40,047 bases of DNA from Pirellulales bacterium (GTDB lineage Bacteria; Planctomycetota; Planctomycetia; Pirellulales; JAICIG01): contig DATLUO010000142.1 in the NCBI GenBank assembly GCA_035533075.1, positions 1 to 40,047 of the forward strand. Reading direction: 5' to 3'. Shown here in pieces: positions 33,777-38,902 of the stretch (its first letter is position 1; every line of letters begins with the position of its first letter). The translations under genes were made by a program, and so were the position numbers. Below the pieces are notes generated by a model that worked only from the letters and a program-made list of their open reading frames with translations, was not told the origin of the DNA and searched no databases.

Positions 33777-34175
33777 TCAGGGCGAGAGCCAGTCGTCGAG
33801 CCGCAGGCCAGGGATGCTTTGGAAGTCCGCGGTGTTGTGCGTCACCAGGGTCAGATTGTGGAGCCTGGCCACCGAGGCGATCATAAGGTCTGTTTCTGGA
33901 ACGACGATGCCTTGTTGCAACAACCCGCCCTGGAGCACGCCGAATTCATGCGCACAGCCCGAATCGAAATCAAGGACCGCCAGTTCCTGCAGTAAATCAG
34001 CAATCAACGCAAGCAATTTCGCAGGATTGGGATGCTTGTACGCTCCAGAGTATAACTCCGCCAGAACTATCGTCGAGCTGGCGATGCCGCCCGCGTACTG
34101 AAAGAACCGATGCGCCAAGCCGGCGGGACGCCGCATGTGGGCCGAGCAGATGTTCGTGTCGAGGAGGTGGGTCAT
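33777..34175 (-). CDS. vapC: VapC-type PIN-domain toxin
   Basis: A 132-residue PIN-domain ribonuclease of VapC type, which cleaves tRNA or rRNA sites. The acidic residues of the active site are in place: Asp6 in HLLDTNI, Glu40 in VLAELYSG, Asp96 in PETDLMIA and Asp117 in NTADF, with Asn114 of the THNTADF motif. It starts at 34175, overlapping the upstream antitoxin stop by 4 bases (ATGA), the common arrangement for antitoxin-first pairs. The frame is open further upstream only as an overlap with the antitoxin. Length and motifs are normal, so this pair looks functional. Confidence 0.9.
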
Positions 34176-34414
34176 TCGCCGTCCAGTTGCGGGCGGCGCT
34201 GGACCTTGCGGGCTTTGTGAACCTGGTCCATGATCGCGTCCCAGTACGGATCGTTGGCCAATGCGCCGGCCGTGCGAAGAATTCCTGCACCCCATTCTTT
34301 TACGGATGGCTTGACCTTCACCTGGACTTCAACCTCTTGCCCGTCTGCCACGCCGGGATCCTCGCTGAGCTCGATTGTTCTTCCGTGGATGATGCCGTGC
34401 ATTGATTTGATCAT
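34172..34414 (-). CDS. VapB-like antitoxin, partner of the PIN toxin
   Basis: An 80-residue protein upstream of and overlapping the PIN toxin by 4 bases. The N-terminal part ([18 protein letters not shown], then [12 protein letters not shown]) resembles the small beta-domain antitoxins that partner with PIN toxins, and the C-terminal part ([22 protein letters not shown]) is a helical tail that would cover the toxin active site. ATG 34414 was chosen, with 34402 as alternative; a longer frame to 34504 has no family character. As antitoxin and DNA-binding partner it would be expected to autoregulate the operon. Confidence 0.8.
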
Positions 34415-34583
34415 CGTTAGCAAACCTCGCTTCCAACGGCTGGCCCCCAGCCGGTTTCGCCATGAATGTTTTCGGGCGTAATCCCCGGCCAGCAGGTCTT
34501 CCAACTGGGTTCAGCAACGTCATCCCGATGCCCCATGTTAGCATGAACCAGCCGCCGAGGCATGACAAGTTTGCAAACTGCAG

Positions 34584-34838: not shown

Positions 34839-35700
34839 AGATCGACCACAACATGTTGTGGCTCTCACGACGAGAACCACAAGATGTGCGAAGATGGCCA
34901 ACTGCGAACATAATGAGTTGCCGTGACGCGAAGATCAGCATCGCGCTGGCGAGACGCAGGCGGTAGGCTGCGATGCCGAGCGGCAAAGTTGGCCATCTTC
35001 GCCGGCGCACGGGGTTTTTGGCATTCGGGCAGGCGAGACGCCTGCACCACAAGGTCGTTGGAACTTGGCAGCCTTCGAAATCGGTTGGCAGCCTTTGAAC
35101 TCCAAAGTCCACGCCTTGTCGCCGCGCCTCGATGGCTCGGCGCGGCAAAGCGCACAATTTCCGTCAGATCGCGTTCAAACCGGCGGGCGCCAGGCGGCGC
35201 AAGTGCTTGTGTAGAAAAGGTTTCGGCTGGCGTCGCCGCCGAAACAAAAGGGGGGATTCTGTTGCGCTCCGCCGCGCGCGGCGGACGACCATGCAACTCG
35301 CCGCCGCGCGCGCCGGGGTCGCGACGGCCCGTGCCTTCCGGCCGGCAGGGCGGAGGCGACACGCGTGTCGCCTCGATCGCACGAGAGAAGGCGGACCGAG
35401 CCAAGCCGTAAGCGACGCCGCCGCCACCAGCGCGGCCGGGGGCGACCGCTCGACGGCCAGGCCGGAGAGGGGCAAATGCGTCGCGCGCGACGTTTTTGCC
35501 GGCGCCTCGTACCTTCCGGCGGGAGGCGCCGACGCGACACGCGTGTCGCATGGAAGACATCACTCCCAGGGCCTGCATGAGCGGGGGGATAATTGATCAT
35601 ACCGCACTGGTATCGACCATGGCATCCGCTTCGTATCGCCGCACCGCCGACTTCTTGAGTTTCTTCCGACCGCCGCCAAAATGTGATACCCTGGACCACA
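34839..35700. other. Gene-free, palindrome-rich region
   Basis: Several hairpins and no convincing gene. A 15-bp inverted repeat (34889-34903 and 34987-35001, CGAAGATGGCCAACT) encloses 83 bp with a further internal inverted repeat. GCAGGCG AGA CGCCTGC lies around 35039-35055. A perfect 22-bp palindrome centred on ACACGCGTGT is at 35353-35374, and a shorter version, GCGACACGCGTGTCGC, is at 35534-35549. The last two are preceded by similar CCTTCCGGC sequences, so they are copies of one repeat. Long open frames on both strands here have no domain content. Confidence 0.7.
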
Positions 35701-36552
35701 TCACTTTCCCCTCAACGCCCGCTGCAACTCGTCCCACTGTTCGCTCGTGACGGCCTCGAGATAATTGAATTCGCCGGCGGCGCGGACCCATTCGCCGCCG
35801 TCGATGCGGATGCAGTCGCCGTTGATGTAACCGGCATAATCGCTAAGCAGATACGCGGCCAGGTTCGCCAGTTCTTCGTGCTCGCCCAGGCGGCCCAACG
35901 GTATTCGCTGCCGCGGACCGCCAAGCTGCTTGAGTGCGTCGGGCATCAGCCGCGACCAGGCGCCTTCGGTGGGGAAAGGGCCGGGCGCGATGGCGTTGGA
36001 GCGGATGCCGTACTTGCCCCACTCGCTGGCCAGCGACTGCGTGAGCGCCAGCACGCCGGCCTTGGCCACCGCCGACGGAACGACGAAACCGGAACCGCTG
36101 GTGGCATACGTGGCCACGATGTTCAAGATGGCGGCTTTCGTACACTCGGCGATCCAGCGTTTGCCGAAGGCCAGCGTCGCGTGAAACGTGCCGTAGAGTA
36201 CGATGTCGACCACCGCGTGAACGGCGTTGTAACTCAGCCGTTCCGTCGGGCAGATAAAGTTGCCGGCGGCGTTGTTCACCAAGCCGTGTACCGTGCCGAA
36301 GCGATCGTACGCCGCGGCCACGAGTGCGTCGATCTGACCGGTGTCGCGCACATCGCAGGGCTGGGCGAGCACGTGCCCGCCCGTTTCCTGCTGGATTTCC
36401 GCGGCGGTCTCATCGAGCACGTCTTGGCGACGGCCGCAGATGACGATGTTCGCCCCCAGGCCCGACAAGCAGCGGGCCATCGAGCGGCCCAGCCCCGTGC
36501 CGCCGCCGGTGATGACAATGGTGCGGTCTTGGAAGGTGCCTGGTTTGAGCAT
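35701..36552 (-). CDS. 2,4-dienoyl-CoA reductase-like short-chain dehydrogenase
   Basis: A 283-residue SDR resembling mitochondrial/peroxisomal-type 2,4-dienoyl-CoA reductases, which use NADPH to reduce dienoyl-CoA intermediates of unsaturated fatty acid beta-oxidation. The cofactor motif TGGGTGLG is at residues 15-22, CGRR (39-42) suits NADPH, NNAAGNF is at 93-99, and the active site is S-A-V-A-K (Ser160-Lys164), a serine where typical SDRs have Tyr (YxxxK), as in the dienoyl-CoA reductases. The GPFPTEGAW loop and IDGGEW near the end are typical. A heptamer array begins 3 bases upstream of the ATG and leaves no Shine-Dalgarno. A truncated copy of the last third occurs at 24563-24810. Confidence 0.85.
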   Translation of the reverse strand: MLKPGTFQDRTIVITGGGTGLGRSMARCLSGLGANIVICGRRQDVLDETAAEIQQETGGHVLAQPCDVRDTGQIDALVAAAYDRFGTVHGLVNNAAGNFICPTERLSYNAVHAVVDIVLYGTFHATLAFGKRWIAECTKAAILNIVATYATSGSGFVVPSAVAKAGVLALTQSLASEWGKYGIRSNAIAPGPFPTEGAWSRLMPDALKQLGGPRQRIPLGRLGEHEELANLAAYLLSDYAGYINGDCIRIDGGEWVRAAGEFNYLEAVTSEQWDELQRALRGK

Positions 36553-36555
36553 GGG

Positions 36556-36590
36556 AGGGTTCAGGGTTCAGGGTTCAGGGTTCAGGGTTC
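36556..36590. repeat. Perfect heptamer array, 5 x AGGGTTC, at the SDR start
   Basis: Five identical 7-base units; on the minus strand these are GAACCCT repeats that end 3 bases before the SDR initiation codon. This places the array in the 5' untranslated region of that gene, where a ribosome-binding site would be. Confidence 0.95.
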
Positions 36591-36643
36591 AGAGATTCCG
36601 GCTCGAGGATTGGCGACCCTTGACGCATTTGGCCTGTAAAGTG

Positions 36644-36699
36644 TTGACGCGTCAAGTCTGCGTGCGGAATACCCAACCTCGCGGGCCGTATGCTACAAT
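36644..36699 (+). promoter_or_regulatory. Possible operator and extended -10 ahead of the DUF3775-HEPN pair
   Basis: A perfect 12-bp palindrome TTGACGCGTCAA (36644-36655) has a further half-site TTGACGC 24 bp upstream (around 36620). Downstream, TGCTACAAT (36691-36699) is an extended -10 (TGN then TACAAT); no good -35 stands at the usual distance. It may be an autoregulated promoter for the next two genes. Confidence 0.35.
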
Positions 36700-36742
36700 G
36701 TTGCTTGGATTTCCTGTTCGGCAGATCGGCGAAGGAGGAGGC

Positions 36743-37162
36743 ATGCAGCTTTCAGAAACCGTCGCAAAAGTGATTGCTCTCGCCACAGCAATCGACGACT
36801 ACTGGGATATCGAACTTCCGAAGCGGCATGCGAATTACCCCTTGGTTTCGCCGGGCGAGGACTCAGGACCACCGCCGCCGGAAGAACAGGAGCTGAGCGA
36901 TCTGTTGACGGGCCTACCCGAAGACCAATTATATAAATTGGTCTTGCTCGCACATCTCGGCCGAGGAGGCTTTGGAACGGACGATCTACCGGGGCACTAC
37001 GAGGACATGGTGGAACGATTCCCGACGACCGAAGAGGCAGTTGCGCAGATGCTGGGCATGGGGGGATTGGGCGACTACCTGGTGGACGGTCAAGCCAAAC
37101 TCGAAAAGAGCGGGACCGACATCGATCACCTGATGCTTTCGCCGATCGATGCACGCCGTTAG
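36743..37162 (+). CDS. DUF3775-family protein
   Basis: A 139-residue protein with the features of DUF3775: an N-terminal helix (LSETVAKVIALATAIDDYW), a Pro/Glu linker, then LPEDQLYKLVLLAHLGRGGFG (about residues 58-78) and the C-terminal LGDYLVDGQAKL. The family has no established function. The ATG is fixed by GGAGGAG 5-8 bases upstream; the longer open frame runs back into the SDR shadow. It is followed by the HEPN gene after 30 bases, in the same direction and with its own ribosome-binding site, so the two look like an operon. The small acidic first gene and larger nuclease-like second gene recall antitoxin-toxin order, but no DNA-binding motif is visible in the DUF3775 protein. Confidence 0.8.
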   Translation: MQLSETVAKVIALATAIDDYWDIELPKRHANYPLVSPGEDSGPPPPEEQELSDLLTGLPEDQLYKLVLLAHLGRGGFGTDDLPGHYEDMVERFPTTEEAVAQMLGMGGLGDYLVDGQAKLEKSGTDIDHLMLSPIDARR

Positions 37163-37192
37163 AGGGTCGCCGGCCTTGCCGAGGAGCACCGT

Positions 37193-37765
37193 TTGTCGTC
37201 CAACGCTTTTTCAATTCATTTGGAAGAACTATTGCTCGATGCGGACGAACTGAACGACGCGCACATCGCACTCAGAACCCACAAGCCTGGGCGACAATAT
37301 CGGCTTGCTGCGCTGAACCGTGCCGTTGTCATCATGAGCGTCTCGGCATGGGAGTCCTATGTCGAGGAACTGATGACAGAATCCGTTCGTGCTCTGCGAC
37401 CATCGGGGCCCTCTCTCGGAACGTGGCCGGCGCTGAACACTTACGTGTTGGGGTTGCTCGGTAACTTCCACACGCCGAACGCCGCCCGAGTCGAGAGGCT
37501 TGTTCATAGTTGTCTCGGACTTGGCGATATACAGCTTTCGTGGGCATGGCAGAGTTGTAACTCCGCGCAGGCGGTGCGACGTCTCGCCGACGCGATGACA
37601 TACCGCCACGAAATCGCACATGGCGTCAATCCACGGCCAATCATCCACAACCGTTATGCGAGGCGGTTGCCCGAATTCTTCCGGCGGTTGGCATTCTGCA
37701 CGGATAATGCGGTTCGCGATCACTTGGTAGGCGTTCATGGCCTTCAATTCCCATGGCCGCCGTAG
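37193..37765 (+). CDS. HEPN-domain protein with Rx4H motif (RiboL-PSP-HEPN-like)
   Basis: A 190-residue mostly helical protein. LNRAVVIMSVSAWESYVEEL (residues 41-60) resembles the first long helix of RiboL-PSP-HEPN domains, and YRHEIAHG carries R138 and H143 in the R-x4-H arrangement that forms the active site of HEPN ribonucleases. The remainder is helical with conserved-looking aromatic positions. The start is TTG at 37193 supported by GAGGAG upstream. The neighbour is the DUF3775 gene directly ahead. HEPN proteins often act in toxin-antitoxin or phage-defence systems; that role is an inference here, as partner and target are not shown. Confidence 0.75.
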   Translation: MSSNAFSIHLEELLLDADELNDAHIALRTHKPGRQYRLAALNRAVVIMSVSAWESYVEELMTESVRALRPSGPSLGTWPALNTYVLGLLGNFHTPNAARVERLVHSCLGLGDIQLSWAWQSCNSAQAVRRLADAMTYRHEIAHGVNPRPIIHNRYARRLPEFFRRLAFCTDNAVRDHLVGVHGLQFPWPP

Positions 37766-37846
37766 GTGCCTGGGGGAACGCCCCTGTCGTGCTCTCGCCA
37801 GCCAATCTATATTGCAGCTTTCGACCGCATAGTGATTCACGCCCCG

Positions 37847-38902
37847 ATGCCCGCCATTCCCGCCGACCAACTGACTGAATTCGCCACCGAACTGCTCGCC
37901 AAAGGAGGCGTCGGCGTCGAGGAGGCCAATCTCGTGGCCCACAGCCTGGTCGACGCCAACCTGCGCGGCCACGATTCGCACGGCGTGATGCGCACTCCCT
38001 CGTATCTCGAGTGGGTCGCCAAAGGCGATGTCGTCCCCAACGCCCCGTTCACGGTCGTCAAACAATCGCCTACGTCGCTGGTGGCCGACGGCGGCTGGGG
38101 CTTCGGACAAACGCAAGCCCGCAGGCTCACGGAGGCGTTGATCGTCAAGGCCCGCGAGTCGGGCAGCGGCATCGGAACGCTGATTCGCTGCGGACACATC
38201 GGCCGGCTGGGCGAGTATTGCGAACAGGCCGCCGCGGCCGGGCTGGTCTCGATGGTGATGGTCAACACACACGGCCACGCGCGGCGAGTGGCGCCGCCCG
38301 GCGGCAAAGCGCCGCGGCTGGGAACCAACCCGCTGGCCTTCGGCGTGCCCGCCGACCAGGGGCCGCTGGTGCTCGACTTCGGCACCAGCGCCACGGCCGA
38401 AGGCAAGGTGCGCGTCAAAAAGATCGCCGGGCAGCTTTGTCCCGACGGATGGTTGCTCGACGCCGGCGGCAAGCCGACGAACGATCCCAACACATTGTAT
38501 GCCGATCCGCCCGGCACCATTTTGCCCATGGGCGGCCCGCAGGCCTACAAAGGCTTCGGTCTGGCACTGATGGTCGAGATTTTTGCCGGGGCGCTGTCGG
38601 GCGGAGTGACCATTCGCGAGCGGCCGGTCAATCAGAACGGCAATTGCGTCTTCATGCTGTTGGCCGCTCCTGAACACTTCGGCGGGCAGGCCCATTTTGC
38701 GGCCGAAGTGGCGCAGTTGAGCCGCTTCGTCCGCGATTGCCCGCGCGTGGCGGGAATCGACGAGATTCAGCTTCCCGGCGATCCGGAGCGGCGCGTGCTG
38801 GCCGAGCGTCAGGCGCGCGGCGTACCGCTGGATGAGGGCAATTGGAAGCAGTTGACCGCGCTGGCGGAACGGCTTGGTGTGGACGTTCCCTCGGCGGCCT
38901 AG
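37847..38902 (+). CDS. Malate/L-lactate dehydrogenase-family oxidoreductase (Ldh2 type)
   Basis: A 351-residue member of the MDH/LDH2 (YlbC/ComC-like) family of NAD(P)-dependent 2-hydroxyacid dehydrogenases, distinct from classical lactate dehydrogenase. The N-terminal AxxxDLRGHDSHGVMR motif with the catalytic His (about residue 45) is clear, followed by cofactor-region sequences such as GWGFGQ, RCGHIGRLGEYCE and the central LGTNPLAFGVP. The substrate among malate, lactate, sulfolactate and related acids cannot be told. The ATG at 37847 was chosen over an upstream in-frame alternative because the family N-terminus begins here. It is followed 2 bases after its stop by the lipoprotein gene, suggesting co-transcription. 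Confidence 0.85.
   Translation: MPAIPADQLTEFATELLAKGGVGVEEANLVAHSLVDANLRGHDSHGVMRTPSYLEWVAKGDVVPNAPFTVVKQSPTSLVADGGWGFGQTQARRLTEALIVKARESGSGIGTLIRCGHIGRLGEYCEQAAAAGLVSMVMVNTHGHARRVAPPGGKAPRLGTNPLAFGVPADQGPLVLDFGTSATAEGKVRVKKIAGQLCPDGWLLDAGGKPTNDPNTLYADPPGTILPMGGPQAYKGFGLALMVEIFAGALSGGVTIRERPVNQNGNCVFMLLAAPEHFGGQAHFAAEVAQLSRFVRDCPRVAGIDEIQLPGDPERRVLAERQARGVPLDEGNWKQLTALAERLGVDVPSAA

Follow-up and report, generated by a model that had tools for sequence, protein, structure and literature searches.

The window, by which we mean the whole 40,047-nucleotide stretch of DNA that was analysed, contains a gene for a DUF3775 protein followed on the same strand, after a gap of 30 bp, by a gene for a HEPN protein (table 1). 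Both open reading frames are real genes, and their products exceed the curated Pfam cut-offs for the respective families. The DUF3775 protein matches PF12616 over residues 48-120 (E = 1.1e-7; 32.1 bits against a cut-off of 27 bits), and the HEPN protein matches PF18735, HEPN_RiboL-PSP (E = 2.7e-10; 40.9 bits against a cut-off of 28.4 bits), with a best stretch that spans just residues 13-63 and a second stretch that is also present. PF12616 is the only Pfam model that the DUF3775 protein matches above cut-off, and neither a nucleotidyltransferase match nor a DNA-binding domain was found in it using Pfam. The HEPN protein carries the catalytic motif R138-x4-H143 (letters RHEIAH), both residues of which are invariant in all 15 linked HEPN proteins of our 15-member alignment, and its TTG start is supported because homologues start with M/V-P-S-N-A. 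NCBIfam gave no match for the pair, and sequence searches of the PDB gave nothing useful. The sequence-only reading of this DNA had described a two-gene unit of a 139-aa DUF3775 protein and a 190-aa HEPN protein with R138 and H143, 30 bp apart and each with a ribosome-binding site; the open reading frames and Pfam matches agree with this description, and both ribosome-binding sites are visible in the sequence. The genome that contains the window (8.5 Mb) encodes one HEPN protein of this kind and one DUF3775 protein.

Table 1. Features of the DUF3775-HEPN locus, in window coordinates
Feature	Position	Strand	Remarks
12-bp perfect palindrome TTGACGCGTCAA, candidate operator	36644-36655	.	Sole exact match in the window
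Extended -10-like element TGCTACAAT	36691-36699	+	About 45 bp upstream of the DUF3775 start
Ribosome-binding site of DUF3775, AAGGAGGAGG	36732-36741	+	Read from the sequence
DUF3775 gene	36743-37162	+	ATG start, TAG stop, 139 aa; PF12616
Ribosome-binding site of HEPN, GAGGAG	37181-37186	+	Read from the sequence
HEPN gene	37193-37765	+	TTG start, TAG stop, 190 aa; PF18735

The extended -10 element and the palindrome to which the sequence-only reading had drawn attention both exist, but a sigma-70 scan called no promoter at the former, and the palindrome is unsupported as an operator because it is not conserved in the regions upstream of the other pairs described below (15 pairs compared). A similar TACAAT lies upstream of the pair in genome G932. 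Because DUF3775 has no recognisable DNA-binding domain and no operator is conserved, classic type II autoregulation is unsupported. Two further repeats were observed in this part of the window, namely a run of GGGTTCA heptanucleotide repeats (36557-36592) between an SDR gene and the DUF3775 promoter region, and a perfect 10-bp inverted repeat with a 5-bp spacer (AAGACCAATT-ATATA-AATTGGTCTT; 36921-36945) within the DUF3775 coding sequence.

Structures predicted using AlphaFold2 have a mean pLDDT of 90.3 for HEPN and 91.5 for DUF3775. In a VIA-align search with the HEPN model, the best 18 matches by Z score (9.1 to 6.9) were nearly all HEPN-type proteins and included 2hsb (Z 9.1, rmsd 4.0, 123 residues), 4nqf, HEPN/MNT toxins, the prophage protein HepS, and Csm6. 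For a bundle of helices, a Z score near 9 is moderate, so that the fold match on its own is moderate evidence, and Foldseek alone gave no significant match for the model; therefore, we base the assignment to the HEPN family on three things taken together, namely the Pfam match, the motif, and the succession of HEPN structures among the matches. The DUF3775 model is compact and all-helical, and a fold search of the PDB found nothing above Z 4.8 and no solved relative, which is not proof of a new fold. A phage PRTase-CE protein from a viral library was considered as a structural relative of DUF3775 and was not relied on (E 0.35, TM 0.52).

A lack of recurrent linkage of the two genes in other genomes had been named beforehand as an outcome that would refute the proposal; the linkage does recur, and it is strict for intact HEPN copies. 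We surveyed planctomycete genomes, ran one pattern scan across the GTDB genome collection, and searched collections of plasmids, phages, and viral contigs. In the GTDB collection we found only two close relatives of the HEPN protein (73% and 57% identity), each with a DUF3775 gene directly upstream; the hosts of loci L002 and L003 are planctomycete MAGs. A search with a DUF3775 alignment in the family of one close relative yielded a fourth pair (G542), and in total we identified 15 intact pairs in 14 planctomycete genomes (the window, G526, G527, G542, G801, G932, G771, G902, G898, G920, G711, G918, G876, and G900, which has two), all with both genes on the same strand and DUF3775 always first. 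The intergenic gaps range from 1 to 71 bp (1-39 bp in 11 pairs; 30 bp in the window, 71 bp in G526, 24 bp in G527, and 42 bp in G542), and identity to the window proteins is 46-73% for HEPN and 31-59% for DUF3775, based on alignments of 15 and 18 members, respectively. In the plasmid, phage, and viral-contig collections there was no DUF3775 match and only distant HEPN proteins were present, with no close viral HEPN. Because there are 15 intact pairs the linkage is far beyond chance, and the explanation that the two genes are accidental neighbours can be dismissed as already refuted by the number of pairs, by DUF3775 identity that falls as low as 31%, and by the differing surroundings.

The genes that flank the pair vary by locus and include those encoding an FMN-binding protein, PEP mutase, class II tRNA synthetase, Omp85, M20 peptidase, and a protein kinase, and no third gene recurs beside the pair across loci. 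GC3 of the pair is below the median of its neighbours at 13 of the 15 loci, as compared using gene calls from a simple codon-bias heuristic; the exceptions are G900 C442 and G526, where three and one neighbour genes, respectively, were compared. The varied flanks, the lack of a third gene, and the low GC3 fit a mobile two-gene cassette. In the window, a gene for a malate/L-lactate dehydrogenase (ldh_2) starts 81 bp past the HEPN stop on the same strand, an arrangement that would also suit a pair belonging to a downstream ldh_2 operon. Although ldh_2 is present in 40 of 57 related genomes, the pair lies beside it in none of the 19 best relatives inspected, which refutes this explanation as a conserved arrangement and makes it very improbable overall; co-transcription of the pair with ldh_2 in the window's genome alone is possible. 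With no conservation of the neighbourhood, it was not feasible to demonstrate an empty insertion site next to ldh_2.

The pair could also serve housekeeping RNA processing or regulation with no role in conflict. Only two loci share flanks (L077 and L084, in G902 and G898); both have the pair after a class II tRNA synthetase gene, which is one case of vertical retention and shows that such retention of the pair is possible. However, the distribution is patchy, with DUF3775 matches in 20 of 347 genomes sampled from the class of G526 and in one of 146 genomes from the order of the window, and the pair is present more than once in G900, disrupted by transposases in G882, low in GC3, and devoid of conserved context. 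We therefore consider a housekeeping role improbable.

Phylogenetic analysis placed the linked HEPN proteins in one clade apart from eight unlinked relatives (95/99 support, 96% of bootstrap trees), with three of the unlinked sequences being long-branched and unsure in their placement. HEPN is more conserved than DUF3775 in all 105 comparisons (mean identity 0.55 vs. 0.38), the distance matrices of the two proteins correlate (r = 0.61, Mantel p = 0.0003), and third codon positions hold most of the differences in the genes of the pair. DUF3775 is acidic in 14 of the 15 pairs, including that of the window (pI 4.3). A YWDxELPKxHPxYPLV segment of DUF3775 is replaced in G918, G876, G805, and G884, and the two intact HEPN proteins of this group, those of G918 and G876, group together as a separate subclade (100/99); replacement of the segment together with the HEPN subclade is consistent with co-adaptation of the partners, which these sequence comparisons may reflect.

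To examine the linkage from the side of HEPN as well, we queried the sample of 347 genomes with both proteins. All 14 intact members of the HEPN clade recovered with the HEPN alignment have DUF3775 directly upstream and none lacks it, a result behind which there are few loss events; three distant HEPN proteins of other groups (G889, G785, and G736) without DUF3775 were found in the same search. Four further HEPN copies are not part of a working pair, and all of them are broken. In G805, DUF3775 is intact and HEPN is disrupted by a frameshift and a TAG codon. In G882, DUF3775 is disrupted by an in-frame stop as well as by a transposase insertion, and the start of HEPN is cut by a second transposase (DDE_Tnp_1_4), with the remainder 302 kb away beside another copy of the element. 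G844 and G832 contain HEPN fragments. Intact DUF3775 genes without HEPN, on the other hand, occur in three places (G900 C385, G884, and G876 C484, the last being divergent). Given the broken HEPN genes and the orphan intact DUF3775 genes, it is the antidote-like gene that persists without its neighbour, whereas the nuclease gene does not persist alone; this asymmetry rests on few events, because the losses in G882 and G844 could reflect no more than decay of the whole locus. Some of the orphans have neighbours of their own. The intact DUF3775 gene of G900 C385 adjoins a C-5 cytosine DNA methylase gene (L089, 6491-8149) in a genome with two complete pairs, and the divergent DUF3775-like gene of G876 C484 (L091, 2900-3313) is immediately preceded by the gene for a phage terminase large subunit, and G876 has a complete pair elsewhere; this divergent gene is possibly a phage-borne antidote.

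Given these results, we favour the reading, with a probability of roughly 0.58, that HEPN is an RNase toxin or abortive-infection effector restrained by DUF3775. The sequence-only reading had proposed a toxin-antitoxin or defence module, and the gene order, tight coupling, catalytic motif, faster-evolving upstream gene, acidic DUF3775, and loss pattern all fit that proposal, whereas its palindrome gains no support as an operator. By the criteria used for type II toxin-antitoxin systems, the genes constitute a small, close, co-directional, and recurrent pair (15 intact pairs), and HEPN, as the putative toxin gene, is not found intact without DUF3775, the putative antitoxin gene (0 of 14 in the 347 genomes, with few loss events). 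On this reading, the pair would be a self-contained two-gene module that spreads horizontally, in which DUF3775 is encoded first and is probably translated from the same message as HEPN. From what is known of the family, HEPN would be a metal-independent RNase that acts as a dimer through R138 and H143. DUF3775 would bind HEPN and keep it inactive. If DUF3775 were then lost, degraded, or displaced, as might happen when a phage infects the cell, HEPN would be released and could cut RNA and stop growth.

In the main rival to restraint by DUF3775 the roles are reversed: a defence complex would rely on DUF3775 as its sensor or activating subunit, and HEPN would be silent alone and cut RNA only after recognition of a phage component by DUF3775. 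Phage tail proteins activate Tha and similar HEPN defence proteins that act solo (PMC11087260), HepS, which has been solved bound to the lambda tail tip, is among the structural matches of the HEPN model, and faster evolution of DUF3775 fits a sensor too. On the other hand, a sensor is not expected to persist alone, and the intact DUF3775 genes in three places without HEPN and in one place beside a broken HEPN count mildly against it, as does the position of DUF3775, which is first and tightly spaced as is usual for antitoxins. We consider a sensor role rather unlikely.

Toxin-antitoxin, abortive infection, and CRISPR systems all use HEPN RNases as central effectors, and few partners that control these RNases are known, RnlB being one. 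Across toxin-antitoxin and defence systems, HEPN proteins cut RNA, typically as dimers via R-x4-6-H (PMC7180214, PMC11087260), and are controlled by MNT nucleotidyltransferases, by an RNA antitoxin in the case of AbiF, or by phage proteins in solo systems (PMC7180214, PMC12373285, PMC11087260). The HEPN-MNT systems (type II/VII; HepT-MntA, SO_3166-SO_3165) resemble the pair in being two-gene units with an R-x4-6-H HEPN RNase, and alignment of the HEPN model to toxins of this kind (7ae6, 7bxo, and 8xdj) gives Z about 9; in contrast, the HEPN protein here belongs to PF18735 and its partner has no nucleotidyltransferase match. An MNT-type partner was rejected because DUF3775 matches PF12616 only and its model is all-helical. 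RnlA-RnlB and LsoA-LsoB similarly combine a HEPN-type toxin with a non-MNT protein antitoxin and have a role in phage defence (PMC7180214), but their lengths and partner differ, and the pair has no Pfam or NCBIfam match to the RnlA and RnlB families at E up to 1. Tha and HepS share a HEPN RNase effector with the pair, and HepS aligns to the HEPN model with Z 7.4 over 134 residues; unlike the short HEPN protein here with its constant neighbour, Tha is longer, solo, and activated by phage tail proteins (PMC11087260).

AbiF/AbiD likewise have a HEPN effector, described as a distant relative of the window's HEPN family (PMC3710099), and AbiF of C. difficile is neutralised by an RNA partner (PMC12373285), whereas the conserved partner here is a protein. 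Positions 35700-38000 contain no match to the RNA families described in Rfam at E up to 1, and a known RNA antitoxin for the window's HEPN was rejected on this ground. The same Pfam HEPN family is found in RiboL-PSP-HEPN proteins and in the phage-defence systems PD-T4-2, PD-T4-5, PD-T7-3, and ApeA (PMC3710099, PMC10952713), which also suits a sensor role for DUF3775; PADLOC 2.0.0, which may not include models for these four systems, gave no match for the pair at E up to 1. A 2013 survey of HEPN proteins gives an L-PSP fusion or a ParB neighbour as partners of this family and does not name DUF3775 (PMC3710099). The Acidovorax double-RNase system (PMC10714953) does not appear to involve a DUF3775-HEPN pairing, and the open full-text literature yielded no relevant paper on DUF3775. 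By these comparisons, DUF3775 as a HEPN partner differs from MNT, from RnlB, and from the known RNAs.

If restraint of HEPN by DUF3775 is correct, a role as a conserved protein partner would be the first testable function for DUF3775, and the pair would represent an additional defence or toxin-antitoxin family, found in Planctomycetota. More tentatively, DUF3775 may constitute an unrecognised class of protein antitoxins or gatekeepers whose direct binding silences HEPN RNases with no nucleotidyl transfer involved, and may define a planctomycete anti-phage module, with the orphans, including the one beside a phage terminase, acting as antidotes in trans; we regard this broader proposition as possible, though doubtful.

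DUF3775 is found in unrelated proteins too. In G671, G560, G635, and G644 (L022-L025), a protein of about 300 residues has a DUF3775-like N-terminal region followed by a Cys-containing region without a Pfam match, and no HEPN gene of the linked clade is nearby. A HEPN relative (38% identical) in G191 lies without DUF3775 beside a reverse transcriptase-like gene (L004, 1495-3617), perhaps a defence RT locus, and a distant HEPN relative on a Klebsiella IncC plasmid (L017, 3677-4438) adjoins an integron integrase like a lone gene cassette. Because relatives stand alone in plasmids or beside an integron integrase, HEPN proteins of the wider family need not always have a protein partner. Together with the presence of DUF3775 in unrelated proteins, this counts against the reading that we favour. 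In the window itself, about 2.2 kb from the DUF3775-HEPN pair, a gene for a PIN-domain protein on the minus strand (33777-34295; PF01850, E = 5.7e-13) overlaps a small upstream gene on the same strand without a Pfam match (34172-34504), and these two genes resemble a VapBC toxin-antitoxin system.
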